Below are positions 12,907 through 51,045 of a stretch of 64,000 bases of DNA, one piece after another. The translations under genes and the position numbers were made by a program. Every line of letters starts with the position of its first letter. The first letter of the stretch is position 1. The stretch is from Halohasta litchfieldiae. GTDB lineage: Archaea > Halobacteriota > Halobacteria > Halobacteriales > Haloferacaceae. The stretch spans positions 1,674,001 through 1,738,000 of the forward strand of contig NZ_CP024845.1 in NCBI RefSeq assembly GCF_002788215.1. The letters are read 5' to 3'. The notes under the pieces were generated by a model, which ran no database searches, was not told where the DNA came from, and saw only the letters and a program-made list of their open reading frames with translations.

Positions 12907-14160
12907 TTACGGCCAGTTTCCGCCCTCGGTGTAGGCGTCGACGACGCGATCAATGGCGACGACGTAGGCGGCCGTCCGGAGGGAGTCGAGGTCTTTTGTG
13001 TCGTAGGTATCGATTAGCCCGTCGAAGGCCTCGCAGATCACCCGTTCGAGTTCGTCGTTGACTCGCTCTTCGGTCCACGAAAACCGTTGGCGGTTCTGAA
13101 CCCACTCGAAGTACGAAACCGTAACCCCACCAGCGTTGGCGAGAATATCGGGGACAACGTAGGTATCTTTTGCCGCGAACACGCGATCAGCACCCGGCGT
13201 GAGCGGGCCGTTTGCGGCCTCGACGATGACGTCTGCACGCACCTCCTCAGCCAGCGATTCGTTGATCGCGTTCTGGAGTGCCGCCGGGATGAGGAGGTCG
13301 ACGTCCAGCGTCAGTAGTTCCTCGTTGCTTAGCTGTTCAGGAGCGTTGTGTTCGGTAACTGCGCCGGTTTCGAGCTTCGTCTCGGCGACCGCGGCGGCAT
13401 CTAACCCCTCGGGATTGTAAATCGCGCCGCCGGAGTCCGAGACGGCGACGACAGTCCCACCCGCCTCGTCGATAAGACGTGCAGCAATCGATCCCGCGTT
13501 GCCGTAGCCTTGGATGGCGACCGTTGCGTCCGCAAGATCTCCACCAAGCCAGTTGAACACCTCGCGTGCGGACAGCATCACCGACCGTCCGGTCGCCTCG
13601 ACGCGGCCCGCCGAGCCACCGGAGTCGATTGCTTTCCCCGTGATGACACCCGGTGCGGTCGTGTTCTCTAAGGTTTCGTAGGTGTCTTTGATCCAGTTCA
13701 TTTCCCGCTGGCCGGTGTTGACATCCGGGGCCGGGATGTCTTTGTTCTCTCCAATTATGGGGCGGAGTTCGGCCGCAAACGAGCGTGTGAGTCGCTCTAG
13801 TTCGCTTTCGCTGTACTGTTTTGGGTCAATGATGATTCCCCCTTTCCCGCCACCGTACGGGATGTCGACGACCGCACATTTGTACGTCATCCAGCCGGAG
13901 AGTGCTGCGACCTCGTCGCGGTTGACACCGGGATGGTAGCGGATACCACCTTTGTACGGTCCCCGATCACCGTTGAACTGCGAGCGGAACGCCCGGAACA
14001 ATTCAATCGAACCGTCGTCGAGTTCGACCGAAAGCGTGGTTTCGAGGATACGCTCGGGATGTTTCAGCCGTTCGAGCACATCCGACCGGACGTCGACGTG
14101 CTTGCCAGCAACGTCGATCTGCTCCTGAAGGCTCTCGAACGGGTTGACATGGTCAGCCAT
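12907..14160 (-). CDS. gdhA: Glutamate dehydrogenase
   Basis: Interconverts glutamate and 2-oxoglutarate plus ammonium. The 417 residues match the hexameric archaeal GDH family: [10 protein letters not shown] (about 70-79), catalytic Lys106 in PYGGGKGGI, and the dinucleotide-binding turn GYGNAGS (218-224). Cofactor preference cannot be settled by eye. It stands alone between the thioredoxin-like gene and the DUF4166-YndJ pair. The start ATG at 14160 is the natural one ([14 protein letters not shown]). Confidence 0.95.
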
Positions 14161-37710: not shown

Positions 37711-39339
37711 TCAGTGATTGCTCCCGTCCTGTCTGAGAATAATGATCATCGAGAGCCCCGAAACGGCCAGCAAGAGCACCGAGGGAACCACCGCATACTG
37801 AAAGTAGGCGCTTTCCTGGGCTTTCCAGACGAGCGTGACGAGCGTTTCGAACCCCGTGGGCCGGAGGATCAGCGTCGCTGGAAGCTCCTTCATCGTCGTC
37901 AGAAACACCAGCGCGGCTCCGGCGACGATCCCCGGCGTCACCAGCGGGAGCGTGATCTTCCGGAAGGCAGCAACCGGCGAGCTACCGAGGCTCCGGGCGG
38001 CCTCACCGAGTTTCGGGTCGACCTGCAGCGTCGAGGTCCGAATTGAACCCACCGCCTGTGGCATGAACCGGACCACGTATGCAAAGACGAGGAGTGGCAG
38101 CGTCTGATAAATCTGTGGCCCGAAGGGGATGTCGGCGGTCTCGTACCCCGTCGCAAAGAAGACAAGCGCGAGCGCCAGCACGATCCCCGGGACGGCGAAG
38201 CCGACGTAGGTCGCCCGCTCGAAGAGGTTCGACAGCGGAGAGGCGTCTCTGGCGGCGAAGTAGGCCACCGGCACCGCCGCGAGCACGGCCACAACTGCAG
38301 CCGCCCCAGCCACCAACACGGAGTTGGTCACGTACTCCAGTTTGAGCCCCAACTCGGGGCGGGCAGCGAGATCGGCCGTGACGAGCCAGAGGCCGAGAAT
38401 CCACACCGGCACGAGGAGTGCAAGGCTCGTTACCGCCGCCGGAAACAGGGTCGCAGGCCACCGCCAGACGCCGAGTTCGATGAGTGGCTCGGTCGACTGG
38501 TCGTTGCCAACGCCATCGCCGTGGACCGTGTCATCCGGGCGAATTCGGGATTCAAGCGCGAGAACGACCAACACGATTCCAAGCAGTTGGATCGAGAGCA
38601 GCGAGGCGTAGTCCTGATTGAACGAGTTGAACTCGACGAAGATCTGGCGGGTAAACACCGGCAATCGCATGATTGCGGGAGTTCCGAAATCCGACACCGC
38701 ATACAGCGCCGCGAGCAGTCCCCCGGCGATGATGGCGGGCCGAACGTGGGGTAGGGTCACCCGCCGAAACGCCGCCCACCGGCCGTGGTTGAGACTCCGG
38801 GCGGCCTCCAAGAGCGAGGAGTCGAACGACAACAGCCCGGCGCGGGCGGTGAGATAGACGTAGGGATAGGTGTACAGCGTGATGACGAGGATCGAACCGG
38901 GAAGGCCGTATATTTCGGGGAGCTGTTCAATCCCGAGCGGCTGGAGCAGCGACTGGAACTCGCCACGGGGGCCGAACGCCGAGACGAACGTAAACGCGCC
39001 AATGTAGCTCGGCACGACCAGCGGCAGAGCGACCACAACCGACCAGAATCGCCGGAAGGGGAGGTCAGTCTGGACGGTCAGCCACGCCAGTGGGACCCCG
39101 ATGCCGACCGAGAACACGGTGACACCGGCCATCAGCAGGAGACTGTTGACCAGCGTCTCCACGGTAGCCGGTCTGAGAAGCAGGTTCCACGCCCGCGTCG
39201 ACTCGACCTTCGTAGCTTCCAGCAAGAGCCACGAAAGCGGGAGGATCATGCTCGCCGCAACCGCGCCGGCCAACAACGTCAGGCCAAGCGAGCGGTCGTC
39301 GGGATCGCCGGTGGCGGTGAGTCGGTCGAGGCGTGTCAT
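37711..39339 (-). CDS. Iron ABC transporter permease (FbpB/ThiP-like), fused two-domain
   Basis: A 542-residue permease made of two homologous halves of about six helices, each with an EAA loop for the ATPase: EAARSLNHGRWAAFRRVTLP and EAARSLGSSPVAAFRKITLP. This fused form is usual for ferric (FbpB/SfuB) and thiamine importers. The ferric-type binding protein at 46498 is the natural partner, and the gene borders the TTAGG-type operator at 39476-39489 in a divergent arrangement. No ABC ATPase gene is in the window. No TATA lies at -27 of the ATG at 39339, so a leadered transcript or a different start is possible. Confidence 0.9.
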   Translation of the reverse strand: MTRLDRLTATGDPDDRSLGLTLLAGAVAASMILPLSWLLLEATKVESTRAWNLLLRPATVETLVNSLLLMAGVTVFSVGIGVPLAWLTVQTDLPFRRFWSVVVALPLVVPSYIGAFTFVSAFGPRGEFQSLLQPLGIEQLPEIYGLPGSILVITLYTYPYVYLTARAGLLSFDSSLLEAARSLNHGRWAAFRRVTLPHVRPAIIAGGLLAALYAVSDFGTPAIMRLPVFTRQIFVEFNSFNQDYASLLSIQLLGIVLVVLALESRIRPDDTVHGDGVGNDQSTEPLIELGVWRWPATLFPAAVTSLALLVPVWILGLWLVTADLAARPELGLKLEYVTNSVLVAGAAAVVAVLAAVPVAYFAARDASPLSNLFERATYVGFAVPGIVLALALVFFATGYETADIPFGPQIYQTLPLLVFAYVVRFMPQAVGSIRTSTLQVDPKLGEAARSLGSSPVAAFRKITLPLVTPGIVAGAALVFLTTMKELPATLILRPTGFETLVTLVWKAQESAYFQYAVVPSVLLLAVSGLSMIIILRQDGSNH

Positions 39340-39475: not shown

Positions 39476-39489
39476 TTAGGTTTGCCTAA
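39476..39489. promoter_or_regulatory. DtxR/IdeR-type operator, box 1
   Basis: TTAGGTTTGCCTAA: 5-base arms TTAGG/CCTAA around a 4-base centre. It lies between the TATA element and the start of the 39497 operon, where a bound repressor would block polymerase. It is the exact reverse complement of box 2. Confidence 0.75.
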
Positions 39490-39496
39490 TCCGGCT

Positions 39497-40021
39497 ATGG
39501 AGCTGACGAGACGCGATGCGGTGGCTGCGCTGGGAGCGGTCGGAGCCGGCGGTGTCGGAGCTGTGGGCGTCCAGCGATACGCCACCGGTGACGAGGGCGA
39601 CCGCGAGGAGGAAGTCAGCGAAACACTGGTCGCCGCCGCCGAAGTGCTGTATCCCTCTGCGGTCGACGGGGTTCGGGAGTTCGTCGAGACGTTCATGGCG
39701 GGTCGACTCGACGATGGCGCTCACGCCGAGGGCGTCCGCGAGGCGGTTTCGGCGCTCGAAACGCGTGCGAACGCGTGGTACGATGATTCCTTTCAGGCCC
39801 TCTCGACCGAGGACCGGGATTCACTCCTCGAAGAGACCGGAGCCGATACCGCCGACGAAAACCCCGACGGGACACCCGCCGAACGCATTCGCTACTATAT
39901 TGTCAACGAGCTACTGATGGCACTGTATGCCTCCCCGACCGGCGGTGAGCTGGTCGGCATCGAGAACCCACAGGGTCACGCTGGCGGCCTCGATACCTAC
40001 CAGCGAGGGCCGAACGCGTGA
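39497..40021 (+). CDS. Gluconate 2-dehydrogenase subunit 3-like protein, Tat signal
   Basis: A 174-residue small subunit. It starts MELTRRDAVAALGAVGAGG, a Tat-type signal, and continues with the family pattern ETLVAAAEVLYPSAVDGVREF and IRYYIVNELLMALYASPTGGELVGI. In bacterial membrane gluconate/sugar dehydrogenases this subunit carries the Tat signal and the flavin subunit is exported with it. Here the GMC flavin subunit follows directly, its GTG overlapping this stop. No cytochrome c subunit is present. The promoter holds iron-type box 1. Confidence 0.9.
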   Translation: MELTRRDAVAALGAVGAGGVGAVGVQRYATGDEGDREEEVSETLVAAAEVLYPSAVDGVREFVETFMAGRLDDGAHAEGVREAVSALETRANAWYDDSFQALSTEDRDSLLEETGADTADENPDGTPAERIRYYIVNELLMALYASPTGGELVGIENPQGHAGGLDTYQRGPNA

Positions 40022-41640
40022 GCAGACCGCCCGCCCAAACCATCCAGCCTGAAAACGGGACTGTCGACCGAACCCCCGTTGCTGAGGCTGACGTCTGCAT
40101 CATTGGGTCGGGACCGGCTGGCTCGCTGGTGGCCAGTCGACTCGCCGAGGCCGGTCACGAGGTCGTTATTCTGGAGGCGGGCCAACGCTTTGCCTTTGAG
40201 GACCGACTCGCACGACAGGAGCGGGCGATCCGACCTACCTATGATCGCCCGGCGGTCTGGGACGGCGACCCCGAGCGGGACGCCCATTCGAACACTGGTG
40301 AGCGATTTTATCCGTTAAACCATGCTCGTGTCAAGGGCGTCGGCGGGTCGACGCTTCACTGGCAGGGGATGGTGATGCGGCTCCACGAGGCCGATTTTAA
40401 TTCGCAAAGCGAGCGCGGGGTCGGCGTCGACTGGCCCATCGACTACGAGGACCTCCAATCGTACTATGGCGAGGCCGAACGCGAGTTGGGCGTGGCAGGC
40501 GGCGACAATCCCTTCGCGCCACCGCGTGAGGAACCCCACCCCATGCCGGAGTTTCAGCCCTCCTACAGCGACAGTCTGTTTGCGGAGGCCTGCGACGAAC
40601 TCGGGATTGCGATGCATTCGGTGCCGAACGCCCGCAACTCCGAGAGCTACGACGGCCGCAGTCCCTGTGTCGGCTACGGCACTTGCCAGCCAGTTTGTCC
40701 GTCGGGAGCCAAGTACGACGCGACAGTTCACGTCGACCGCGCCGAGGAGGCCGGCGCGACAGTGATCGATCAGGCTCCCGTCCAGCGACTTGAGCATACC
40801 GTCGACTCGGTGACTGCGGCGGTGTACGCCACCCCGGATGGCGAGTACAGACAGGAAGCCGAGCAGTTCGTGGTCGCTGCAGGTGGGGTCGAAACCCCGC
40901 GGCTCCTCCTGCTGTCGGAATCCGAGCAGTACCCCGATGGGCTGGCGAACTCCAGCGGCACCGTGGGCAAGTTCTTCATGGATCACCTGTTCGCCGGCAC
41001 AGGCGGCGTCCTTGATGAACCCACGCGACAGGGCCACATCGGCTTTCTCACGAGCGAAAGCCACCAGTTCTACGACGAGGCCGACGCGGAGATCGGCCCG
41101 TTTAAACTCGAATTCTTCAACTACGACGGTCCCTCGCCCGTCGAGATGGCACTAACCGGCGACGACTGGGGCGACGACCTGCTGGATCGGCTCAACTCCG
41201 ACTACGGCACCCATATCGGCATGGGTGGGCTGGTTGAGTCGCTACCCAAGGAGGACAGCTACATCGGCCTCGACCGCAGCCGCACCGACGACCACGGCAA
41301 CCCGGTGCCGGATATCCACTGGAACGTCGACGACCGTGCGCTGCGGACCATCGAACGCGCCAACGAGATCCAAGAGCGGATCCTCGACGAACTGGGCGCG
41401 GAGATCACCTGGCAAGTCGGTCCTGACACCACCGGCCCGGCCTACCACCATATGGGAACGACCAAAATGGGCGACGACCCCGCCGCGAGCGTGGTCGACG
41501 CCTCCCTCCAAACCCACGATCTCGACAACTGCTGGATCGCCTCCAGCTCCGTCTTCCCGACCAGCGGGGCAATGAACCCCACGCTCACCATCGCCGCGCT
41601 CGCACTGCGCTGTGCCGACAGCGTCGACAACGCCCTGTGA
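40018..41640 (+). CDS. GMC family FAD oxidoreductase (sugar dehydrogenase large subunit)
   Basis: A 540-residue flavoenzyme starting at GTG 40018, overlapping the previous stop by four bases. The FAD-binding ADVCIIGSGPAGSLVASRL (about 24-42) is intact; the C-terminal GMC region has YHHMGTTKMG with candidate catalytic His477/478, and SGAMNPTLTIAAL. A Cys-rich stretch SPCVGYGTCQPVCPSGAKYD (about 217-236) is common in gluconate-dehydrogenase-type members. It lacks a signal peptide and probably rides the Tat pathway with the small subunit. Substrate unknown: an alcohol or sugar, with electrons passed to an external acceptor. Confidence 0.92.
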   Translation: MSRPPAQTIQPENGTVDRTPVAEADVCIIGSGPAGSLVASRLAEAGHEVVILEAGQRFAFEDRLARQERAIRPTYDRPAVWDGDPERDAHSNTGERFYPLNHARVKGVGGSTLHWQGMVMRLHEADFNSQSERGVGVDWPIDYEDLQSYYGEAERELGVAGGDNPFAPPREEPHPMPEFQPSYSDSLFAEACDELGIAMHSVPNARNSESYDGRSPCVGYGTCQPVCPSGAKYDATVHVDRAEEAGATVIDQAPVQRLEHTVDSVTAAVYATPDGEYRQEAEQFVVAAGGVETPRLLLLSESEQYPDGLANSSGTVGKFFMDHLFAGTGGVLDEPTRQGHIGFLTSESHQFYDEADAEIGPFKLEFFNYDGPSPVEMALTGDDWGDDLLDRLNSDYGTHIGMGGLVESLPKEDSYIGLDRSRTDDHGNPVPDIHWNVDDRALRTIERANEIQERILDELGAEITWQVGPDTTGPAYHHMGTTKMGDDPAASVVDASLQTHDLDNCWIASSSVFPTSGAMNPTLTIAALALRCADSVDNAL

Positions 41641-41675: not shown

Positions 41676-41689
41676 TTAGGCAAACCTAA
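41676..41689. promoter_or_regulatory. DtxR/IdeR-type operator, box 2
   Basis: TTAGGCAAACCTAA lies just upstream of TATAAA (41693-41698), which is centred 28 nt before the glycosyltransferase ATG at 41723. It overlaps the position of the TFB-recognition element and should block initiation when occupied. Confidence 0.8.
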
Positions 41690-41692
41690 AAG

Positions 41693-41698
41693 TATAAA
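41693..41698 (+). promoter_or_regulatory. TATA element of the family-2 glycosyltransferase gene
   Basis: TATAAA centred 28 nt before the ATG at 41723; leaderless transcript expected. Confidence 0.65.
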
Positions 41699-41722
41699 CC
41701 GCGAGAGTCGAAATGGCCAGTA

Positions 41723-42499
41723 ATGAGTAAGGTCACCCAGCGCGGGACGGACGCGGATGCAGCCAGCGAGGACGATGAGCCAGTAACAATCGGTCGAACA
41801 CCGGAAGACAGCAGCAAGGGTCCCTACACGTTCGAAGATCTGAGCGTCGTGATGGGCACCTACAACGAGGAGGCGGCGATTGCGAAAGTCATCTCGGACA
41901 TTAACGAGATTACAGATGGGAAAGCCGAAGTGGTGTGTGTCGACGGCTCGTCGGACCGGACGCCGGAGATCGCCCGCGAGCACGGGGCCCGCGTGATCGA
42001 ACAGGAACCACAGGGGTACGGCGTCGCGGTCAGCGCGGCAATCAGCGCGCCGGACCGGCCGGTCGTCGTTACCACCGACTGTGATGATACCTACCCGATG
42101 GAGCAGCTGCCGGAGTTCCTCGCCGAAATAAACGCGGGTGCAGATGTCGTCAGCGGTGACCGACTCTACCACGGCGCAGATGCAATGCCGGCGTTCAACC
42201 GCTTCGGCAATCAGGCCTTCGCGGCGATTGCGAGCGTGCTGATGGGAACGCGGGTCCACGACACGACGACTGGAATGCGAGCCTACCGCCGCGAAGTGAT
42301 CGAATCCATCGAGTGGACCGAAAACACCGGGCTGTCGGCCGAACTGCTGATCCGACCGCTAATGAGAGGCTACGAGATTCGTGAGGAGCCGATTGCCTAC
42401 CGCGAGCGGGCTGGCGAGACGAAACTCGATCCGATTCAGGGCGGCGCGGCGATTGCGAAGTCGATTGTGAAAGTCTGTCTCGAAGAGCGGTTCCGGTAG
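41723..42499 (+). CDS. Family 2 glycosyltransferase, dolichyl-phosphate sugar synthase-like
   Basis: A 258-residue GT-A enzyme without transmembrane helices. The core shows SVVMGTYNEEAAIAKVI, VCVDGSSDRTPEIA, PQGYGVAVSAAI and the metal site TTDCDDTYP, then VSGDRLYHGA and TTGMRAYRRE. This is the pattern of dolichyl-phosphate mannose/glucose synthases, which load a sugar onto a polyprenyl phosphate at the inner membrane face; DCDD in place of the usual DADL is a mild oddity. The promoter carries iron-type box 2, so expression should rise in iron starvation. Confidence 0.92.
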   Translation: MSKVTQRGTDADAASEDDEPVTIGRTPEDSSKGPYTFEDLSVVMGTYNEEAAIAKVISDINEITDGKAEVVCVDGSSDRTPEIAREHGARVIEQEPQGYGVAVSAAISAPDRPVVVTTDCDDTYPMEQLPEFLAEINAGADVVSGDRLYHGADAMPAFNRFGNQAFAAIASVLMGTRVHDTTTGMRAYRREVIESIEWTENTGLSAELLIRPLMRGYEIREEPIAYRERAGETKLDPIQGGAAIAKSIVKVCLEERFR

Positions 42500-42671
42500 T
42501 CGAGAGAGCAGGTCGAAAGGCACTGATGTAGATTCCTATTTATTTCGTATTGCAATAGTTAGAGCGCGAGTCGGTCAATGAACTCTTCTCAACCACGGTG
42601 GCGTGAGTAGGATATCGAACTGTAGAGCTGTCAAAAGAGATTTGAATATCTTCCACTAAGTACCGACGTAG

Positions 42672-43115
42672 ATGAGTACGCGTCGTGACGTCCTCGCTGG
42701 TCTCGTTGGTGCCTGTGCTGGAGTCCTCAGTTGGACTCTCGGCTCAGAAGTCGCCGACGAGCTTCGGACGTCGGAAGTTGGATACACCATCATCCGGAAT
42801 GAGACCGAAAGCCGGCAGTCCCTCAGTGTGTTATTCGAGAGTGATGCGGACCCGCTCTTTTGGGAAACCTACGACCTCGAACCGGGTGAAGTCGTCGAGT
42901 TTGACGGCTTTGACCGAGTTGGCGACTATCGGGTCTTCGTACGGTGGAATGACTTGACTCGCTCCCAGCGACTTGAGACTGGGACGAGAGCGGTTGCGAT
43001 CGTTCTCGCGTTTCCGTGGGGAGATGAACATATCTTTATCAGGGACGAACCTTTCTCGTCACTATCTCCCTCTCAGCGGTCTGCCAAACAAACCCAACAC
43101 AGCTCAACAGAGTAA
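42672..43115 (+). CDS. Small Tat-signal protein, unknown function
   Basis: A 147-residue protein with the N-terminus MSTRRDVLAGLVGACAGVLSW, a twin-arginine-type signal without a lipobox Cys at the end of the hydrophobic core. The mature part is beta-rich (GYTIIRNETESRQSLSVLF; FDRVGDYRVFVRW) and resembles small exported beta-sandwich proteins of haloarchaea. I do not recognise the family. GC content and codon use are lower than in the flanking genes, hinting at later acquisition. Confidence 0.7.
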   Translation: MSTRRDVLAGLVGACAGVLSWTLGSEVADELRTSEVGYTIIRNETESRQSLSVLFESDADPLFWETYDLEPGEVVEFDGFDRVGDYRVFVRWNDLTRSQRLETGTRAVAIVLAFPWGDEHIFIRDEPFSSLSPSQRSAKQTQHSSTE

Positions 43116-43330
43116 GAACGCTGATGCTGTTTGATCTGGCTCCGCGTACAATCGGATTACTTGCCAGCTTCCTTCGTAGCTGATCCAGTTTCTATCGCTT
43201 GAAACGAGCGTCGAGGGCGTGCAACATACAGAGGTTGAGTGAGTTACAATGCAGTAATGGAAGAAAGATCAATTAACGAGGGTTTTGTACACTACAGAAG
43301 AATTATGCTAAATTTCGACCAATCACACTT

Positions 43331-43768
43331 GTGTCCCCGAACATCTATCGACGGAGGGTTCTCAAAAATAGTTGTTTAGCTGGTAGTCTGGGCTTGTTGA
43401 GTGGGCTTTCCGGTTGTTCGCAGATTCGTCCCAAGGATGATAGCGAACTCACAGAAGGGGACGGTGTGATAATTGCGGAGAGAGCGGAGTCTGTTCCAGA
43501 CAGTGCTGTACTCATTGACTACAACGATGGGCGGATTCTTGATCACGAAGAGATACAAGAACCGATTAAGGAAGCCGTTGAATCCGGGTCAGCACGTCTA
43601 CCCCTCAAAAAACCATCCGTGAGAAGTGTTCAACGGATTCTTTTAGAGCTTCCAAAGTATTCCTCAGAACAGAGTAGCGAGTTTGATCCGGGATACTACT
43701 TCAAATACGAAGACGAAATAGTTGTGGTCAATCTCCTAATGCTACGGGAATATGACCCTTCTCAGTAG
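43331..43768 (+). CDS. Small lipoprotein, unknown function, AT-rich
   Basis: A 145-residue protein starting at GTG 43331: RRRVLKNSCLAGSLGLLSG then lipobox LSGCS, so a Tat-type lipoprotein. The rest (GDGVIIAERAESVPDSAVLIDYN and FDPGYYFKYEDEIVVVNLL) gives no recognised family. Base composition is clearly more AT-rich than the neighbouring genes. It lies with the 42672 gene in a 1.5 kb stretch that splits the iron-associated gene group. Confidence 0.65.
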   Translation: MSPNIYRRRVLKNSCLAGSLGLLSGLSGCSQIRPKDDSELTEGDGVIIAERAESVPDSAVLIDYNDGRILDHEEIQEPIKEAVESGSARLPLKKPSVRSVQRILLELPKYSSEQSSEFDPGYYFKYEDEIVVVNLLMLREYDPSQ

Positions 43769-43995
43769 ATTCTTTTCGACACGCGACAGCCAGTGTGACT
43801 CGTTTTGAACGTATTCTTGTGCCATACTCGCGTTCGCAGTCTTGCATCCACTATTTACCTGTCGACCGAGAGCGTCACCCAGCCGATGAGAAAAACACGT
43901 ACACCCCCTGAGGTCGAAACCCACGCCTTCATCCCAACAGTCAGAGCAGTATAGGAAGCTTTAATAGCCATACATCATGAATAATCATTATAGAT

Positions 43996-44232
43996 ATGAG
44001 GAACAGTCAGAGTCGACCAATCGGCGACGACGAATGCGTGAGTGATGCCGTGATGGAAGCAGTGGCAGCCGCCTCGGAGCAGTCTCCGATGGCGTTGCCA
44101 CCGCTCGGTGACTCGGTCGACATGGAGTTCGTAGACCAACTGTTCGTTCCCTCAACGACGATCAGATCGATCCGGTTCAGCTACGCGGGCCACGATATCG
44201 TTCTCGCACGGGACCAGATCCGCGTTCATTAG
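43996..44232 (+). CDS. HalOD1 output-domain protein
   Basis: A 78-residue stand-alone HalOD1 domain: DAVMEAVAAASEQSPMALPPLGDSVDME followed in two blocks by FVDQLFVPSTT and IRFSYAGHDIVLA. HalOD1 is a haloarchaea-specific module usually found at the end of regulatory proteins or alone as a single-domain protein; its role is unresolved. It is convergent with the ArnT-like glycosyltransferase gene, 36 bases away. Confidence 0.85.
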   Translation: MRNSQSRPIGDDECVSDAVMEAVAAASEQSPMALPPLGDSVDMEFVDQLFVPSTTIRSIRFSYAGHDIVLARDQIRVH

Positions 44233-44268
44233 TGCTCGACTCCACCATTCGGTTTTATTCAGGGACAG

Positions 44269-46491
44269 TCAGGCCGTCGCTTCGAGTTGCGTCTCGAAGT
44301 CGACCCACGACGAGTGGGCATCGGAACTGTCGGGGAGATACGTCCCCTCGCTGCCACACCGCGTGACGAGCGTGCAGACGGTTCGTTCCGGCGGCCAGAC
44401 GGCTTCGATACTGCCACCGTCAGTCGACCGAACCGCCGCTTCCTGTCGATAGGTGAACGACGAGCCATCGGGAGCGAACAGCGTCACAAGTAGTCGAATC
44501 TCGTCGGTGTCGTCGACCGAAATCGCGGTCGTGTTTGACGAGAGCGTCCGCTCGGTCGACGTCGTCTGATTGGTGGTTGTGACGGTCTCAAGACGGGTTG
44601 CGTTGGGCGTGAGCCTCCAGTCGACGGTGATGTTGTCGGTTGGCGTGGTGAGATCGTAGCTGGTGGCTTCGCGGTCGGTTTCGAGTCGAACGGTGGCCCG
44701 ACTGATGCGGTTGGGGATACCGACAGTCGTCTCGCCGGCCAGCGAGTCGCCACGCCGGACGTCGAGCGGTTCGAGTTTTGGCGTGATGTAATCGTTGGGG
44801 TTCGGTGTCCACTCGCCGCGGTAGTCGTAGCGGTAGGTGGTTCGGTTGGGATAGGCATCAAGCACCTCGAAATCACCCGCCGGATCGCGGTCCAGCGCGT
44901 ACACCACCTCGCCGTCGAGGCCGGGGTCATTCCGAAGCGACTGGAACGGATGATTCTGCCACGGGCCGTAGGGATCGGGAATGAACACGAGCGCGTTGTC
45001 GAACTCGGTCTCCTCGATGGGTTCGTAGGCGACCTCGTACTTTTCAGTGGGACCGATGTTTTCCTCCAAGGGGTCGCCGAGTAGGGTTGCGTTCGCGCCG
45101 CCGACCACGAGGACGCTGGCGACAAGCACAGCAAGGGTCAGTCGACGCGCGGTTCGAGCCGAAAAGCGGGCCGCGAGGCGGTCGACGAAGTGACTCCCGC
45201 GGATGGCACGCCAGCCAGTCACGAAGCCAAACGCCCCGAACACCGACAGCGGAGCCAGCAGGTCAAAGTAGTAGAACGGGCCGAAATGGGCCACGAGGCC
45301 GGTGGTTGGATCGCTCAGCGTCGCCAGCATGTTGTAGTTCCCCCAGAAGGGAATGTTGCCGAGCGGCACCGAGACAAACAGCCCGGCGAGGAGGAGCCCT
45401 ACGGTCGGGTCGACGCGACCGGCCGACCACCGCCATCGACGGATGGCAACCACAAGGCCGACGACCGCTGCGGCCGTCCCGAGCAGCCCCCCAGTGAACC
45501 AGCGGGTGCCGAGATACTGGAGCGCGTAGCTGTTGGCCTCGATGGCGAGGGCAGGGGTGTACTCAACCGAGTGGTCGAGGATTTCGCGATAGCCGAATCC
45601 CGGACCGTCCAGCGGCGCGAACGCCTGATACGGAAACACCAGCGGCGAGCCGGTGATCCGGAGATTGTACGCCAGCGTCACGCCGACGAAGGCGAGCCCA
45701 CCCAGCGCGGTGAGTGCGTTGCGCCGAACCGGATCGGGAAGCGAGTGCAGTCGGTGCCGAACCGATCCATTGGGTCGTCGACCGACCGACAACCCATCCC
45801 GGCGCAGCGACCGACCGATAGTCCACACCGCGTGCAGTATAAAAGGGGCAGCGAATAGCACGGCCGTGTACGGTCGGGCGAAAAACGCGAGCCCGACAGC
45901 GATTCCTGCGGCCGCCGCGCTTCGCGTCGAGCCGGTTCGGACGCCGTGGAGATAGCCGACCGCAAAGGCGAGATTCAGGAACGTGGTCGGCGCGTAGGGC
46001 AAAAACACCGACGAGGTAAACAACGTCATCGGCGCGGCCGCAAAGACGAGCCCGGCAACCACGCCGACTCGCCGGTCGAAGGCCATCGAGCCGAGCACTG
46101 AGACGAACAGCGTACTCCCGGCAGCAATCACTGCCAGCGTCACGCGTGGCTCGCCGAACAGCGCCATCGACACCGCGAACAGCGCCGACGGCACCGGCCC
46201 GTACTTCGAGTAGAGTCGACCGCCGTCCTCGACGAAAAACCAGGGCCGGAACGCCTCACTGAGGTCGCCAGCAAACAGTTCGAGTTGGCCCTCAAGCAGC
46301 ATCGCGGCCTGCATGAGATAGACGCCTTCGTCGTGGTTGACCGAATGGTATGGGAAAACGACAGACGCGATGAAAAAGACGACAGCGCCCGACAGGGTGG
46401 CGACGGCGACCGCAAGCCACTGTTGGCGGTCGAGGGGCGCACGTCGACGTAGTCGGCGCAATCGACGCCGCAGTCGGGAGTCGGAAGACAC
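44269..46491 (-). CDS. ArnT/PMT-like family 39 glycosyltransferase
   Basis: A 740-residue membrane protein: a basic N-terminus ([12 protein letters not shown]), about eleven transmembrane helices, and an outer C-terminal soluble domain (about 480-740) rich in beta-strands. The first outer loop has HSVNHDEGVYLMQAA with the catalytic-type Asp54-Glu55 pair of GT-C enzymes, then RPWFFVEDGGRLYSKYGP. GT39-like enzymes move a sugar from a polyprenyl-phosphate donor to a lipid or protein on the outer face. Its ATG is 6 bases after the stop of the ferric-binding lipoprotein, so both are on one iron-controlled transcript. Confidence 0.88.
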   Translation of the reverse strand: MSSDSRLRRRLRRLRRRAPLDRQQWLAVAVATLSGAVVFFIASVVFPYHSVNHDEGVYLMQAAMLLEGQLELFAGDLSEAFRPWFFVEDGGRLYSKYGPVPSALFAVSMALFGEPRVTLAVIAAGSTLFVSVLGSMAFDRRVGVVAGLVFAAAPMTLFTSSVFLPYAPTTFLNLAFAVGYLHGVRTGSTRSAAAAGIAVGLAFFARPYTAVLFAAPFILHAVWTIGRSLRRDGLSVGRRPNGSVRHRLHSLPDPVRRNALTALGGLAFVGVTLAYNLRITGSPLVFPYQAFAPLDGPGFGYREILDHSVEYTPALAIEANSYALQYLGTRWFTGGLLGTAAAVVGLVVAIRRWRWSAGRVDPTVGLLLAGLFVSVPLGNIPFWGNYNMLATLSDPTTGLVAHFGPFYYFDLLAPLSVFGAFGFVTGWRAIRGSHFVDRLAARFSARTARRLTLAVLVASVLVVGGANATLLGDPLEENIGPTEKYEVAYEPIEETEFDNALVFIPDPYGPWQNHPFQSLRNDPGLDGEVVYALDRDPAGDFEVLDAYPNRTTYRYDYRGEWTPNPNDYITPKLEPLDVRRGDSLAGETTVGIPNRISRATVRLETDREATSYDLTTPTDNITVDWRLTPNATRLETVTTTNQTTSTERTLSSNTTAISVDDTDEIRLLVTLFAPDGSSFTYRQEAAVRSTDGGSIEAVWPPERTVCTLVTRCGSEGTYLPDSSDAHSSWVDFETQLEATA

Positions 46492-46497
46492 GGCTGC

Positions 46498-47631
46498 TTA
46501 GGTTTGGATGCCGACGTCCCGCATCATATCGATGGTTGTCTCGACATCGGAGAGCTCCGAGAGGGTGAGATCCGGCACGTCAAGCTCGTCAATCGACGGG
46601 AGTCGACCGACGGGGTCGACGCCGGAGATCAGTGGGTACTCGAAGGTCTCGACGGCGAAGTACTCTTGGGCCTCCGCGGACAGCAGGTGGCGGATGAAGT
46701 TCTGGGCAAGCTCCGGATCGTCGGCCTGATCGATGACCGCCGCGCCCGCAACGTCGAAGATCGAGCCCGCATCACCCTCGGTAAAGGCCGTCTCGATGGG
46801 CGCGTTGGGCGAACCGTCAAGCACACGCTGGATATAGTAGTGGTTCGCGAATCCGGCGTCGAGTTCGCCGTCAGCGACCGCTTGGGAGACCGCATACTCG
46901 TCGGGGTAGGATTCGATCCCACTGTCGACGATTCCCTGCAGCCACTCGCGGGTGGCTTCGTCGCCTTCGAGCTGGCGCATCGCGGTGACGAACCCCTGAC
47001 AGGAAGGGTAGGACGGTGCCCACCCCATATCGCCCTCGAAGTCGGGGAACGCCATCACGTTGGAGGGGATCTCCGAGGCGCTGTAGGCGTCGGTGTTGAA
47101 CGGCACCGACCGGGCGCGGCCGGAGATACCGGTCCACTGCTCGGTGTGGAACTCATCGCGCACCAGATCGGTGATCTCCGAGGACAGCGCCTGCGTCCGG
47201 CCCGCATCAGCGAGCGCGCCGAGGCCGCCGGAGTCGACGGTGTAGAACACGTCGGCGGGCGTCCCTTCGCCCTCCGTTTCGATCTGGGTGACCAGATCGC
47301 TGCCGCTGCCGTAGCGGGGGACCGGATCGAAATCCGGGTAGGTATCGTCAAAAAACGAGATCAGCTCGCCGACGAGGAACTCGCCGCGGCCGGAGTAGAT
47401 CGTCAGTTCGCCCTCAAGATCCGGCATCTCGGCTATCGGCGTCCCGCCGGGGGCATCCCGCCCCTCGCGACCCGAGCCGATCTGGCCGACCGAGGAGTCG
47501 ACTGTCTCCTCGTTGTCGGCCCCACCGAAGAGGCCAGTACATCCTGCAAGTGTCACCGAACCAATCGCCGCCGATCCGGCAAGGAATCGTCGACGGTTGG
47601 ATCGTCCAAACGAATCGTGTTGGTTGCTCAT
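46498..47631 (-). CDS. Ferric-ion ABC transporter substrate-binding lipoprotein
   Basis: A 377-residue Tat lipoprotein: SNRRRFLAGSAAIGS with lipobox LAGC (Cys31). The mature part is an FbpA/AfuA-type binding protein: GELTIYSGRGEFLVGELI, GSDLVTQIETEGEGTPADVFYT and VPFNTDAYSASEIP. These bind Fe(III) in FbpA relatives; thiamine-binding relatives are similar, so specificity is supported mainly by the iron-type operator (box 3) 4 bases upstream and the permease at 37711. The gene is followed 6 bases later by a GT39-like glycosyltransferase. Confidence 0.9.
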   Translation of the reverse strand: MSNQHDSFGRSNRRRFLAGSAAIGSVTLAGCTGLFGGADNEETVDSSVGQIGSGREGRDAPGGTPIAEMPDLEGELTIYSGRGEFLVGELISFFDDTYPDFDPVPRYGSGSDLVTQIETEGEGTPADVFYTVDSGGLGALADAGRTQALSSEITDLVRDEFHTEQWTGISGRARSVPFNTDAYSASEIPSNVMAFPDFEGDMGWAPSYPSCQGFVTAMRQLEGDEATREWLQGIVDSGIESYPDEYAVSQAVADGELDAGFANHYYIQRVLDGSPNAPIETAFTEGDAGSIFDVAGAAVIDQADDPELAQNFIRHLLSAEAQEYFAVETFEYPLISGVDPVGRLPSIDELDVPDLTLSELSDVETTIDMMRDVGIQT

Positions 47632-47633
47632 GT

Positions 47634-47651
47634 TTTTAGGCTAGCCTAAAA
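47634..47651. promoter_or_regulatory. DtxR/IdeR-type operator, box 3 (perfect 18-base palindrome)
   Basis: TTTTAGGCTAGCCTAAAA is a perfect inverted repeat whose 14-base core (47636-47649) matches the other boxes. On the minus strand it lies between the TATAAG at 47655-47660 (27 nt before the ATG) and the ATG at 47631. It contains CTAG, a tetramer generally scarce in haloarchaeal DNA. Confidence 0.85.
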
Positions 47652-47654
47652 CAA

Positions 47655-47660
47655 CTTATA
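47655..47660 (-). promoter_or_regulatory. TATA element of the ferric-binding lipoprotein gene
   Basis: TATAAG on the minus strand, centred 27 nt before the ATG at 47631. It overlaps the last codons of the RGP-like gene. Confidence 0.65.
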
Positions 47661-48822
47661 CCCGTCGGTTCGCTGCTGGTTCGGCGGCCTGCTCGATGCC
47701 TTCGAGGCAGTCGAGCCAATCGCCCATGAACTCGCCGATGTAGTTGAAGAAGTCACCGTTGTTGTACTCCGACCAGTCGCCGTCTGCGAGTTCCTCGGCC
47801 ATCGCCGCGAAAATGCGGGCGTAGGGGTCGTCGGCATCCGAGAGGTCGGGGTCGACCTCGTCGACGATCTCCCAGAGGTGTTCGTTGAGTTCGAGGCCAG
47901 GGACCTCGTTGTTGAGGTCGTCGAAGGTGCTTCGTGGGGCCTTGTTGTGCTCACACAGCGGGAGGCCGTTGTAGATCTGCTTGTCGAGGATGTCGCAAGC
48001 ACGCTTGAGGAACACGCCCGACCAGATGTCGTCGAACCGGCCGACGTCCCACTCGTTTTCGTCCATCGGGAGTTGGTAGAACGCCGGAATCACTTCACGC
48101 TCGAAGGCGAGATTCATCGAGCAAACAGTCAGATAGTTGTCCTCGGCAGCGACGAAATCGCCCTCGAAATCCTCTCGCGTGGTTCGGGTCTGAGCCTGTC
48201 CCTGCAGGTCGCCGTCCATCAGAATCCGGACCGCATCGAGATCGGGCACGTTGGTCCACAGCCCCTGCGAGGCGACGATGTTGTCGACCTCGGTCGTCTC
48301 GGTCTCAACGCTCTCGTGCATCGCCGAGTAGGGGTAGCCACGCGGGTAGAGATCGTGTTCCTCGGCGTTCTGGTAGAGGACGTTGACCCACTGCTCGTCC
48401 GAGGAAACCGATTCGATCTCGCCCTCGAAGTCGAGATTCTCCATGTGGGTTCCGAAGAAGTCCTCGTCGTGAGGCAGGGTGTCGTCGTCGATAAAGAAAC
48501 CGTAGTCGTAGTCGCCGGCCCACATGTAGAGCAGGCCGAAACTCGTCTCGGCGTGGCTGGCCGCGGGGACGATGTGGCTGTACTCCGAAACGTCGTGGGC
48601 CTCGAACCACTCCTCTCGGCGCGAGCCGTCGAAGACTTCGCCGTCGACGCCCTCCTCGTCCAACATCGCCTGCATCTCGTCGGTGTCACAGAAATCTTCG
48701 GTGATGAGGACGACGTGAAGCCGCGAGAGGTCGAAGTCGTGATCGCGGGCGTTCTGGAAGTACGACCGCATGCATTCGTACTCCCGGATCGTCGGCACCA
48801 TAACGCAAATGTCCTGACTCAT
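47656..48822 (-). CDS. RGP-like protein (reversibly glycosylated polypeptide family)
   Basis: A 388-residue cytosolic protein of the family annotated in haloarchaea as alpha-1,4-glucan-protein synthase. It begins SQDICVMVPTIREYECMRSY, has the acidic metal-type motif GFFIDDDTLPHDEDFFGTH (Asp112-114), and later NLAFEREVIPAFYQLP and GRFDDIWSGVFLKRA, all typical of plant RGP/UDP-arabinopyranose mutases. Plant members interconvert UDP-arabinose ring forms and self-glycosylate; the archaeal reaction is unknown. It has its own iron-type box 4. Confidence 0.88.
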   Translation of the reverse strand: MSQDICVMVPTIREYECMRSYFQNARDHDFDLSRLHVVLITEDFCDTDEMQAMLDEEGVDGEVFDGSRREEWFEAHDVSEYSHIVPAASHAETSFGLLYMWAGDYDYGFFIDDDTLPHDEDFFGTHMENLDFEGEIESVSSDEQWVNVLYQNAEEHDLYPRGYPYSAMHESVETETTEVDNIVASQGLWTNVPDLDAVRILMDGDLQGQAQTRTTREDFEGDFVAAEDNYLTVCSMNLAFEREVIPAFYQLPMDENEWDVGRFDDIWSGVFLKRACDILDKQIYNGLPLCEHNKAPRSTFDDLNNEVPGLELNEHLWEIVDEVDPDLSDADDPYARIFAAMAEELADGDWSEYNNGDFFNYIGEFMGDWLDCLEGIEQAAEPAANRRV

Positions 48823-48840
48823 TTCAGTATCTGATTCTTT

Positions 48841-48854
48841 TTAGGCTATCCTAA
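48841..48854. promoter_or_regulatory. DtxR/IdeR-type operator, box 4
   Basis: TTAGGCTATCCTAA with flanking T and A runs, 18 bases upstream of the RGP-like ATG at 48822. A minus-strand AATATTTT (48853-48860) overlaps its upstream edge and probably serves as the TATA element, about 35 nt from the ATG, implying a very short leader. Confidence 0.78.
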
Positions 48855-48905
48855 AATATTGTCGGTCTCGGCCGAATCGGCTACTGCGTGGCTGCTGCCA
48901 CGAGA

Positions 48906-50006
48906 TTACTGAGCAGCCTCCGCGGCGGTCCCCTGTTGGGCGGCCTCCGTCGGCGAGACGCCCAGCAGGGTGATCGCTGCGGCCCCGCCGACGAGCGTAA
49001 CTCCGTTTTTAAGCGCGTGGTCGACGACGGCAGCGGCGAGCGCGGTTGGCGCGCCGATTGGTGTGAGCGCGACGACCAAGGCGGTAAAGGCGGCCTCGTA
49101 GAGGCCGATGCCGCCCTGTGAGAGCGGCAGAACCTTGGCGAGATTGCCGACGCTCACCGCGAGCGTCCCGACCGCAAGCAGAGGGCCAAGGGCCAGACCG
49201 CTGTCGAGAGCCGCGAGCACGAGAATCGCAGTGCCAACGTCCAGCGACCAGATCAGGAGGCTTCCGGCTCCGATGACGCTTATCGCGCGTGGGTTCCGGG
49301 CGACGACCGCGATATCACCGGCGAAACTGGCGATGGCTGCAACCGGTTTCCGAAGTTGCGGAAACTGGTCGACAACGCTCGCGGCAATCGAGCCGGGTCG
49401 ACGGCCCGAACGTGCGACCAGCACCGTCGAGACGCCGACAACGAGGGTGATCGCAGTCACGCCACCGGCGGCGAGGAGCGCGGTTCTGGCCCCGTCGGCT
49501 TCAGCGACCAGTTCCAGCGGGCCAGCGACGCCGCCGAGGGCGAGCCACGCGAGGGTGACCCCACCGAGCACCGCAATCGAGGCGAGATCGAAGACGCGTT
49601 CGATGGCCAACGACGCGAAGCCAGCGGGGTACGGCACCTCCCGGCGGGCGTGCAGGATGTAGGCCCGAACCGAATCACCGGCCCGCGCCGGAAGCACGAG
49701 GTTCGCCGTCTGGCTTATAAAGACCGCAAGGGTGAGAAACGTCGACCCCAGCGGATAGCCAGTGGTCGACAGCACCTCGCCGTACCGCTTGCCCCGAAGC
49801 GGCCACGAGAGGGTATAGAGGCCGACAGCGGCCGCAAGCAGCCACGGGTCGGTCCGAGCGACAATCGTGAGCACCGCGTCGACGTCGACGTCCCGAAGCG
49901 CGACGAGCAGGCCAGCAAAAATGAGCACTGTCCCCCCGATTGTGAGATGGCGTCGGGTCACCAAGGCTCGAAGGCCGTCTGTCCACCGACCGCCGGAGCG
50001 AGTCAT
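48906..50006 (-). CDS. Flippase-like membrane protein (UPF0104/LPG synthase TM family)
   Basis: A 366-residue protein with about eight or nine transmembrane helices in the UPF0104 pattern: DPWLLAAAVGLYTLSWPLRGKR, NLVLPARAGDSVRAYIL, and the C-terminal NLAKVLPLSQGGIGLYEAAF. The family includes MprF-like and AglD C-terminal domains and is linked with moving or modifying lipid-linked groups across the membrane. Here it is flanked by sugar enzymes and has an iron-type operator (box 5) at its promoter. Transport of a polyprenyl-phosphate sugar is an inference. Confidence 0.88.
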   Translation of the reverse strand: MTRSGGRWTDGLRALVTRRHLTIGGTVLIFAGLLVALRDVDVDAVLTIVARTDPWLLAAAVGLYTLSWPLRGKRYGEVLSTTGYPLGSTFLTLAVFISQTANLVLPARAGDSVRAYILHARREVPYPAGFASLAIERVFDLASIAVLGGVTLAWLALGGVAGPLELVAEADGARTALLAAGGVTAITLVVGVSTVLVARSGRRPGSIAASVVDQFPQLRKPVAAIASFAGDIAVVARNPRAISVIGAGSLLIWSLDVGTAILVLAALDSGLALGPLLAVGTLAVSVGNLAKVLPLSQGGIGLYEAAFTALVVALTPIGAPTALAAAVVDHALKNGVTLVGGAAAITLLGVSPTEAAQQGTAAEAAQ

Positions 50007-50027
50007 ACACGTTCGGTTCGTACAGAG

Positions 50028-50035
50028 ATATTTAA
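50028..50035 (-). promoter_or_regulatory. TATA element of the flippase-like gene
   Basis: Minus-strand TTAAATAT centred 25 nt before the ATG at 50006; it overlaps the edge of operator box 5. Confidence 0.6.
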
Positions 50036-50045
50036 GCCCACCTAA
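50032..50045. promoter_or_regulatory. DtxR/IdeR-type operator, box 5 (one mismatch)
   Basis: TTAAGCCCACCTAA keeps the CCTAA arm and has TTAAG in place of TTAGG. Placement directly on the upstream edge of the TATA element matches the other boxes, which is why I keep it despite the mismatch. Confidence 0.55.
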
Positions 50046-50115
50046 AACTCGATCAGGAGTCGGTTTCGAGACGGCTACCTGTAGAATCGTGAAACACAGG
50101 ACTGTGCAATACTGG

Positions 50116-51045
50116 TTAGCAGAGTTCGTCGATCAGTTCGCGTGTCGACCGTCGAACCGCCGCGTCACTGCTGAGGGTTGGCTCCCAGCCGAGCGCCGAG
50201 AGTTTCTCGATGGACAGGCGCATCTTCGGCACGTCGCCGGTCCAGCCGCGGTCGCCGCCGGTATACTCGTAGTCGGGGTCGAGGTCCATTTCGTCGGCGA
50301 CGATAGCGGCGATTCGGTCGACCGAGGTCGTCGTTCGCGTCCCGAGGTTGTAGCTGTTGACCGCGTCGGTCGCGTTAGCGACGATATGCAGCATGGCGTC
50401 GACGCAGTCGGTGATGTGGAGATAGGATTTTTCCTGTCGACCGTCGCCGAGAATAGTGAGGGTATCAGGGTTCTCGGTGAGTTTCTCGATGAAGTCCGGG
50501 ATGACTGCGCCGCGGAGACCGGGTCCGACGACGTTGGCGAATCGGAAGTTCCAGACCGTGAGGTCGTGGCTGTGAGCGCGTGCCGACAGCAGCCCCTCGT
50601 CGGCGAGTTTGCCCGCACCGTAGGCGCTGATCGGTTCGAGCGGGGCGTAATCCTCGGGTGTGGGTCGCGGAGCCTCGCCGTAGACGGTCGACGAGGAGGT
50701 GTAGGCGATCTGGGTCACATCCGCGTCGGCCATCGCCTCCAAGAGGTTCAGCGTCATTTTGGTGTTGTCCTCGAACTGGCCGTGGGGGCGGTCGGTGTTG
50801 ACGAGTTTCGACGCCGCGAGGTGGAACACGAGGTCGATGTCGTCGAGGACGCCATCGAGGGCGTCGGGGTCGGTGAGGTCGGCCTCGACGAAGCGCGCGT
50901 CGTCGGCAACGCGGTCCCGCGAGCCGGTCGAGCAGTTGTCGACGACGGTTACGGCCGCGCCGTCTGCGAGGAGTCGGTCGACGAGATGTGAGCCGACGAA
51001 GCCTGCGCCGCCGGTGACGAGGATTCGCTGATCCGAAATGTCCAT
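50116..51045 (-). CDS. NAD-dependent sugar epimerase/dehydratase
   Basis: A 309-residue extended short-chain dehydrogenase. NAD binding: VTGGAGFVGSHLVDRL (about 10-25); catalytic YxxxK: Tyr142 and Lys146 in SAYGAGKLADE; substrate strand SSSTVYGEA. This is the UDP-glucose/galactose 4-epimerase class and probably makes a nucleotide sugar for surface glycans. The ATG at 51045 is the family start. It sits next to the iron-linked flippase gene on the same strand, but no iron-type palindrome is visible at its own promoter, so membership of the regulon is unsure. Confidence 0.92.
   Translation of the reverse strand: MDISDQRILVTGGAGFVGSHLVDRLLADGAAVTVVDNCSTGSRDRVADDARFVEADLTDPDALDGVLDDIDLVFHLAASKLVNTDRPHGQFEDNTKMTLNLLEAMADADVTQIAYTSSSTVYGEAPRPTPEDYAPLEPISAYGAGKLADEGLLSARAHSHDLTVWNFRFANVVGPGLRGAVIPDFIEKLTENPDTLTILGDGRQEKSYLHITDCVDAMLHIVANATDAVNSYNLGTRTTTSVDRIAAIVADEMDLDPDYEYTGGDRGWTGDVPKMRLSIEKLSALGWEPTLSSDAAVRRSTRELIDELC

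Follow-up and report, generated by a model that had tools for sequence, protein, structure and literature searches.

A set of glycosylation genes in Halohasta litchfieldiae lies under the same iron-type operator as a ferric-iron ATP-binding cassette (ABC) importer, and we consider it probable that together they represent an iron-regulated furanose glycosylation module coupled to that importer. The genes are located in a stretch of 64,000 nucleotides (the window; C1:1674001-1738000 of a 3.33 Mb one-contig genome, with Halohasta litorea and H. salina as the nearest relatives that have names). They encode an RGP-like GT75 protein (RGP), predicted to be a nucleoside diphosphate (NDP)-pyranose mutase, a GT2 dolichyl-phosphate hexose transferase (GT2) and a GT39-like membrane transferase (GT39), accompanied by the FbpA-type ferric-binding lipoprotein (SBP) of the importer. 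The gene set, its boxes and its co-occurrence, as well as the folds and catalytic residues of its enzymes, are computed results. The original prediction, made from the letters of the window, had proposed an iron-boxed route of sugar activation, lipid loading and transfer on the outside. The five genes that it named lie where it had placed them and have the identities it gave, iron-type boxes do accompany the locus genes (four exact copies and one with a single mismatch), and a search for the same gene set near DtxR-type boxes in other haloarchaea showed that the genes co-occur widely; the proposed route is found again across the haloarchaea, linked to a ferric importer.

The co-occurrence of the three enzymes was assessed in 145 Halobacteria genomes, at least 90% complete and drawn from 58 genera. 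Of these, 115 contain the RGP family, 115 the GT2 family (NF041391) and 115 GT39, the genomes being the same in each case; the other 30 lack all three. Four genera (g11, g14, g39 and g50) contain both presence and absence, always concordant across the three genes, and concordant presence and absence were likewise seen for g8 and g19 in a smaller genome set. Module-lacking genomes keep only GT2 paralogues, at ~33% identity. Four of eight such genomes have a diverged, boxed FbpA-type SBP, showing that the importer exists without the glycan module; the reverse was not seen. When neighbourhoods were built de novo for 32 loci across the class, giving 33 with the window, SBP, RGP and GT39 were present in all 33, followed by the permease (30), GT2 (27), the GMC oxidoreductase (19), the flippase-like gene (12) and the epimerase (10). 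The Salarchaeum plasmid pJOR178 has the gene order RGP-SBP-permease-ATPase-GT39-G2DH3-GMC-GT2 on a single strand, together with four boxes (G2DH3, gluconate 2-dehydrogenase subunit 3-like), and Halobaculum plasmids carry the same core, indicating that the gene set can be plasmid-borne as a unit.

The operator was defined as TTAGGN4CCTAA. There are nine exact copies in the whole 3.33 Mb genome, compared with two of the pattern read backwards, and four of the nine (39476, 41676, 47636 and 48841) fall inside 9.4 kb. Also boxed in this genome are genes of a siderophore-type ABC importer (PF01497/FecCD) and the gene for the ferric importer's ATPase; the remaining exact boxes stand near less clear genes. 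Box counts were then taken over 80 named haloarchaeal loci, fetched by RGP and amounting to 1.6 Mb, with at most one mismatch allowed unless a box is called exact. These loci contain 261 exact boxes, against none for three control palindromes of like composition. A box precedes RGP in all 80 (72 of them exact), SBP in 75 of 79, GT2 in 61 of 63 named loci and the G2DH3 gene in 37 of 53. GT2 genes that are unlinked, lying ~40 kb to 1.9 Mb from RGP or on another contig, are boxed in 23 of 24 cases, with the box usually 22-48 nt upstream of the start codon. Neither GT39 (0/78) nor GMC (0/36) has a box of its own; both come after boxed genes. GT39 starts 6 nt after SBP in the window and overlaps, or starts no more than 49 nt after, the SBP, permease or ATPase gene in 32 of 34 cases, and is therefore likely to be cotranscribed with SBP or importer genes.

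By its sequence the element is a DtxR/IdeR-type palindromic operator ahead of iron-uptake genes; TTAGG...CCTAA is the classic DtxR/IdeR core. The known haloarchaeal DtxR regulons (Idr1/Idr2 and TroR) share with our locus both this type of box and ferric or siderophore transporter targets, but here glycosylation genes are conserved members, a comparison that does not extend to the gene lists of Leyn and Rodionov (2015) and of the study on TroR. The original prediction knew of no earlier description of iron control of such a route, and the literature searched gave no account of it; two regulon studies, by Leyn and Rodionov (2015) and on TroR (2024), lay outside that search. Elsewhere, two exact boxes at L123:3986 and 4020, ~3 kb distant from genes for a DtxR-family and a rubrerythrin-like protein (L123:6855-7789), have no clear gene directly downstream. 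Another box, at L125:3772, is upstream of genes that by eye resemble those of a lycopene cyclase and a Brp/Blh-like retinal-forming protein, opposite an MFS transporter.

RGP provides the best candidate for the sugar-activating step. Its profile matches MtdL with an E value of 3e-28 and rice UAM with 7e-6, and its AlphaFold 2 model (predicted local distance difference test score, 86.6) aligns to MtdL (7yua) over 357 residues with a Z score of 38.9 at 2.6 A, followed by rice UAM2 (Z 27.8) and the next GT-A folds (Z 15). The model comprises a GT-A fold with the GT75 core and a C-terminal helical domain. The key residues of MtdL are the self-glycosylated R159, the DDD motif at 109-111, D195, S228, R257, D260 and H287 (PMC9937993). 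Profile alignment maps these to R161, D112-114, D194, S235, R262, D265 and H292 of RGP, all of which are invariant in 44 RGP sequences, so that the self-glycosylated-type arginine, the DDD motif, the Mn-binding histidine and the catalytic aspartates are all retained. Judged by its predicted fold and these residues, RGP is probably the step making the activated sugar, as the originally proposed route would have it. RGP shares the whole-chain fold and these catalytic features with the GT75 enzymes (MtdL, Hyg20 and plant UAM/RGP), and differs from MtdL in its low identity (22%), in two sugar-contacting positions considered below and in being under an iron-type box. The characterised GT75 enzymes listed in PMC9937993 include no archaeal member. 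No RGP orthologue outside Halobacteria was present among the matches listed in a phylum search of 197 genomes; these matches all fall in the same order. A Planctomyces plasmid (NZ_CP011275.1:75017-75574) encodes a partial relative that matches 55% of the query at 32% identity, and one haloarchaeon has a second, plant-like RGP (G075:C2:1525556-1526527; PF03214, E 1e-135) besides its module copy. On one Halobaculum plasmid a gene for D-xylose 1-dehydrogenase Gfo6 (L174:7766-8857) directly precedes RGP, a mere hint of pentose chemistry.

GT2 scores 410.7 bits against the NCBI equivalog model NF041391, dolichyl-phosphate hexose transferase (cut-off 375), and its best PDB relative is the dolichol-phosphate mannose (DPM) synthase of P. 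furiosus (5mlz, E 9e-12); in sequence terms it is DPM-synthase-like. The GT2 domain and an acidic motif (DCDD here) are common to the synthases of dolichyl-phosphate (DolP) and polyprenol-phosphate sugars (PfDPMS, ArnC, AglJ and AepG), from which GT2 is set apart by its own family, the lack of a transmembrane part (AepG has two), its iron-type box and its constant company of GT75 and GT-C genes. AepG (PMC9943897) was considered as a GT2 orthologue and rejected, given its two C-terminal transmembrane helices and its location in the aglB cluster. On the Haladaptatus salinisoli plasmid unnamed6, which carries no RGP, a GT2 gene (L172:13268-14002) with its own box at 14036 is found near an FbpABC operon.

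The third enzyme has no significant PDB sequence relative. DUF7846 is recognised above its cut-off, a Foldseek comparison of the model returns the GT-C fold (AglB, ArnT, ALG9, PglB, Emb and PMT), and D54-E55 in the first outer loop is invariant in 25 sequences, as befits the GT-C superfamily. The membrane fold and the DE motif of this loop are shared with ArnT, PMT, AglB and the Emb/AftD arabinofuranosyltransferases; the C-terminal DUF7846 beta domain and the probable cotranscription with a ferric-binding protein gene are not. Halomicroarcula rubra has two GT39-like copies in its locus (L085:14040-16052 and L085:17917-19932).

A route that yields a lipid-linked sugar and includes a GT-C enzyme could also supply a surface glycolipid, as the original prediction suggested, or an exopolysaccharide; the product might then bind Fe(III) or alter the envelope. 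ArnT-like enzymes modify lipids in bacteria. There is also a haloarchaeal precedent, since the DolP-sugar made by the GT2 AepG feeds an acidic exopolysaccharide (PMC9943897). However, the 33 neighbourhoods show no recurrent gene for a polymerase, a Wzy-like protein or an acidic sugar, and nothing in the analysis supports an iron-binding sugar, making this outcome distinctly unlikely.

Of the two other genes in the proposed route, one stands as an accessory and the other falls away. The flippase-like protein scores 148.7 bits against PF03706 and carries the UPF0104/arCOG00899 domain; it is a stand-alone relative of the AglD C-terminal domain, and its closest relatives in other genera are AglD C-termini. 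UPF0104 proteins have been predicted as flippases of glycosylation routes (PMC5898192). Its gene is boxed in all 34 loci where it is adjacent, yet many genera have no copy of it in the locus, and we therefore class it as an accessory of the module. The epimerase has no box in any of the 26 loci where it is adjacent, adjoins the locus in some genera only, and in the window comes first in the order of transcription, with the flippase-like gene and its box lying downstream; it was dropped from the module. Two proteins of the Hfx. volcanii iron-starvation response were considered as orthologues (PMC11349517). Searched with the flippase-like protein, Haloferax yields nothing but the AglD C-terminal domain; HVO_1859 (UPF0104, +11.6 fold) is therefore probably not its orthologue. 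HVO_0655 (GalE family, +12.7 fold), which first resembled the epimerase, is not counted as support.

The relationship to AglD, and that of GT2 to AglJ (about a third identity), would fit a low-iron variant of S-layer N-glycosylation comparable to the low-salt glycan of Hfx. volcanii. We find this quite improbable, as neither AglB nor further Agl genes recur in the 33 neighbourhoods, and a route for a monosaccharide that has a GT-C enzyme of its own needs no AglB. Furthermore, the AglJ-like GT2 paralogue of the window genome (C1:334079) has no box. The original prediction had named two ways in which it might fail, a lack of co-occurrence elsewhere and membership in a constitutive S-layer pathway; the co-occurrence of the module genes in other genomes speaks against the first, the unboxed paralogue against the second.

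We infer the iron response, the direction of regulation, the sugar, the order of the steps and the acceptor in the following model of the iron-regulated module. With enough iron, a DtxR-family repressor would occupy the promoter boxes of RGP, of the SBP-(permease-ATPase)-GT39 unit and of GT2, as well as that of the flippase-like gene in genomes that have it. As iron falls, all of these genes would be expressed together. RGP would then convert an NDP-pyranose to an NDP-furanose through a sugar-arginine intermediate, GT2 would transfer the sugar to dolichyl phosphate, and the lipid-sugar would be turned to the outer face, possibly helped by the UPF0104 protein in some genera. Finally, the GT-C enzyme would pass the sugar to an outer acceptor, which we guess to be the importer's binding lipoprotein or another envelope protein.

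The importer's SBP has 29 PDB sequence matches, nearly all of them iron-binding proteins (best 7w3w, E 5e-53), and by sequence belongs to the FbpA family. In the window genome the importer is split, with the permease at 37711, SBP at 46498 and the ATPase at C1:2.878 Mb, and a box is found upstream of each. The ATPase gene (C1 ~2877768-2878978; L124:2268-3479, minus strand) is separated from the operon by 1.2 Mb and has a box of its own at L124:3572, and its product shares 57-68% identity with the ATPases that other genera encode within the operon; a permease orthologue lies between the SBP and ATPase genes in many genera. An FbpA-family SBP, an FbpB-like permease and an FbpC-like ATPase with a box correspond to FbpABC/HitABC ferric importers, from which the haloarchaeal operon differs in being interleaved with glycosylation genes and in the GSG linker that its SBP carries outside the FbpA fold.

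This linker, between the mature start and the FbpA domain (residue 75 onward in PDB alignments), is variable in sequence apart from a single conserved island, IGSGRxGRxxPGGT or FRGSGxLVxxRPxxGGT. Each of the 65 linkers taken from module-bearing loci has GSG, as against none of four from module-lacking genomes; L057 is a clear exception, by sequence, to the motif. SBPs of Haladaptatus plasmids keep GSG...R...GT even though no usual lipobox can be seen in them. The motif is missing from a homologue in Pseudoalteromonas. In Halorientalis (L073, L080) an FRG[ST]G motif occurs in tandem. The conserved motif fits a modification or recognition site, a comparison in which the module-lacking SBPs number four, and SBP is our guess as acceptor of the sugar. 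The three enzymes might even be dedicated to O-glycosylating the FbpA lipoprotein at the GSG of its linker, so tuning its stability, release or docking; a few further iron proteins may be targets as well. The likely cotranscription of GT39 with SBP in nearly all loci and the distribution of GSG speak for such a role, as does the acceptor range of GT39 enzymes such as PMTs, which use protein Ser/Thr. Conversely, the motif could serve docking, and our search turned up no glycoproteomic data on SBP; we regard this role as possible but doubtful. The corresponding specific proposal, an iron-starvation-induced protein O-glycosylation system placing a furanose on the ferric-binding lipoprotein at its GSG linker motif, we hold to be rather unlikely. 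If true, it would to our knowledge be the first genetically defined archaeal O-glycosylation route, and also the first to draw on a GT75 mutase. Archaeal O-glycosylation has been stated to be unresolved (PMC8241124).

Table 1. Genes and boxes of the locus, in window coordinates.
Feature	Position	Strand or placement	Basis or remark
Ferric ABC importer permease, FbpB-like	37711..39339	-	PF00528; plasmid copies annotated 'iron ABC transporter permease'
DtxR-type box TTAGGTTTGCCTAA	39476..39489	between permease and gluconate-2-dehydrogenase-3/GMC genes	exact, one of nine in genome
Gluconate 2-dehydrogenase subunit 3-like exported protein	39482..40021	+	PF13618; start probably ATG 39497
GMC oxidoreductase, probable large subunit, optional locus member	40018..41640	+	PF05199/PF00732
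DtxR-type box TTAGGCAAACCTAA	41676..41689	ahead of GT2	exact
GT2 dolichyl-phosphate hexose transferase, predicted lipid-loading step	41723..42499	+	NF041391
GT-C / GT39-like transferase, C-terminal DUF7846, predicted outside transfer step	44269..46491	-	PF25230
FbpA-type ferric-binding lipoprotein (SBP), GSG...R...GGT linker motif	46498..47631	-	PDB sequence matches
DtxR-type box TTAGGCTAGCCTAA	47636..47649	ahead of SBP-GT39	exact
RGP-like GT75 NDP-pyranose mutase (predicted NDP-furanose formation)	47656..48822	-	PF03214
DtxR-type box TTAGGCTATCCTAA	48841..48854	ahead of RGP	exact
UPF0104 flippase-like protein, accessory	48906..50006	-	PF03706, TIGR00374
Box with one mismatch TTAAGCCCACCTAA	50032..50045	ahead of flippase-like gene	
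Sugar epimerase	50116..51045	-	adjoins locus

Several observations weigh against an iron-regulated furanose module. The sugar-contacting residues D87 and Q229 of MtdL correspond to H90 and M236 in RGP, and D87 mutants of MtdL are dead; the sugar of RGP is therefore likely to differ from that of MtdL, and on sequence grounds neither its mutase activity nor its sugar is certain. The GT39 label is weak by sequence, as PMT_2 scores 22 bits against a Pfam cut-off of 26.1, and for this reason we call the enzyme GT-C, GT39-like. Among the proteins in Table 1 of the Hfx. volcanii iron-starvation proteome (PMC11349517), none could be tied to the module. Finally, both DtxR-family regulators of the genome score best against the MntR model, below its cut-off. 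DtxR-family proteins may sense Mn as well as Fe, and the box might accordingly answer to manganese or to general metal status; a putative manganese transporter near the Salarchaeum plasmid cluster would agree with this. We give this a low probability, since the box stands before genes of an FbpA-type ferric importer and of a FecCD importer, the box contains the core typical of DtxR/IdeR, and a Haladaptatus plasmid has metal-dependent regulators, a ferritin-like protein and DpsA beside its boxed importer. The boxed G2DH3/GMC gene pair, often part of the locus, might oxidise an extracellular sugar or serve ferric reduction.

An iron-regulated module would give a joint role, tied to iron, to families that have been annotated apart as 'alpha-1,4-glucan-protein synthase', 'dolichyl-phosphate hexose transferase' and 'GT39', and that are present in about four fifths of the haloarchaea sampled. 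Hfx. volcanii has the RGP and GT2 families as well as proven tools for deletion and glycan mass spectrometry, which makes the idea directly testable. With a ferric importer and a three-enzyme sugar pathway under the same iron-type switch, our results suggest that most haloarchaea change their surface sugars when iron runs short.

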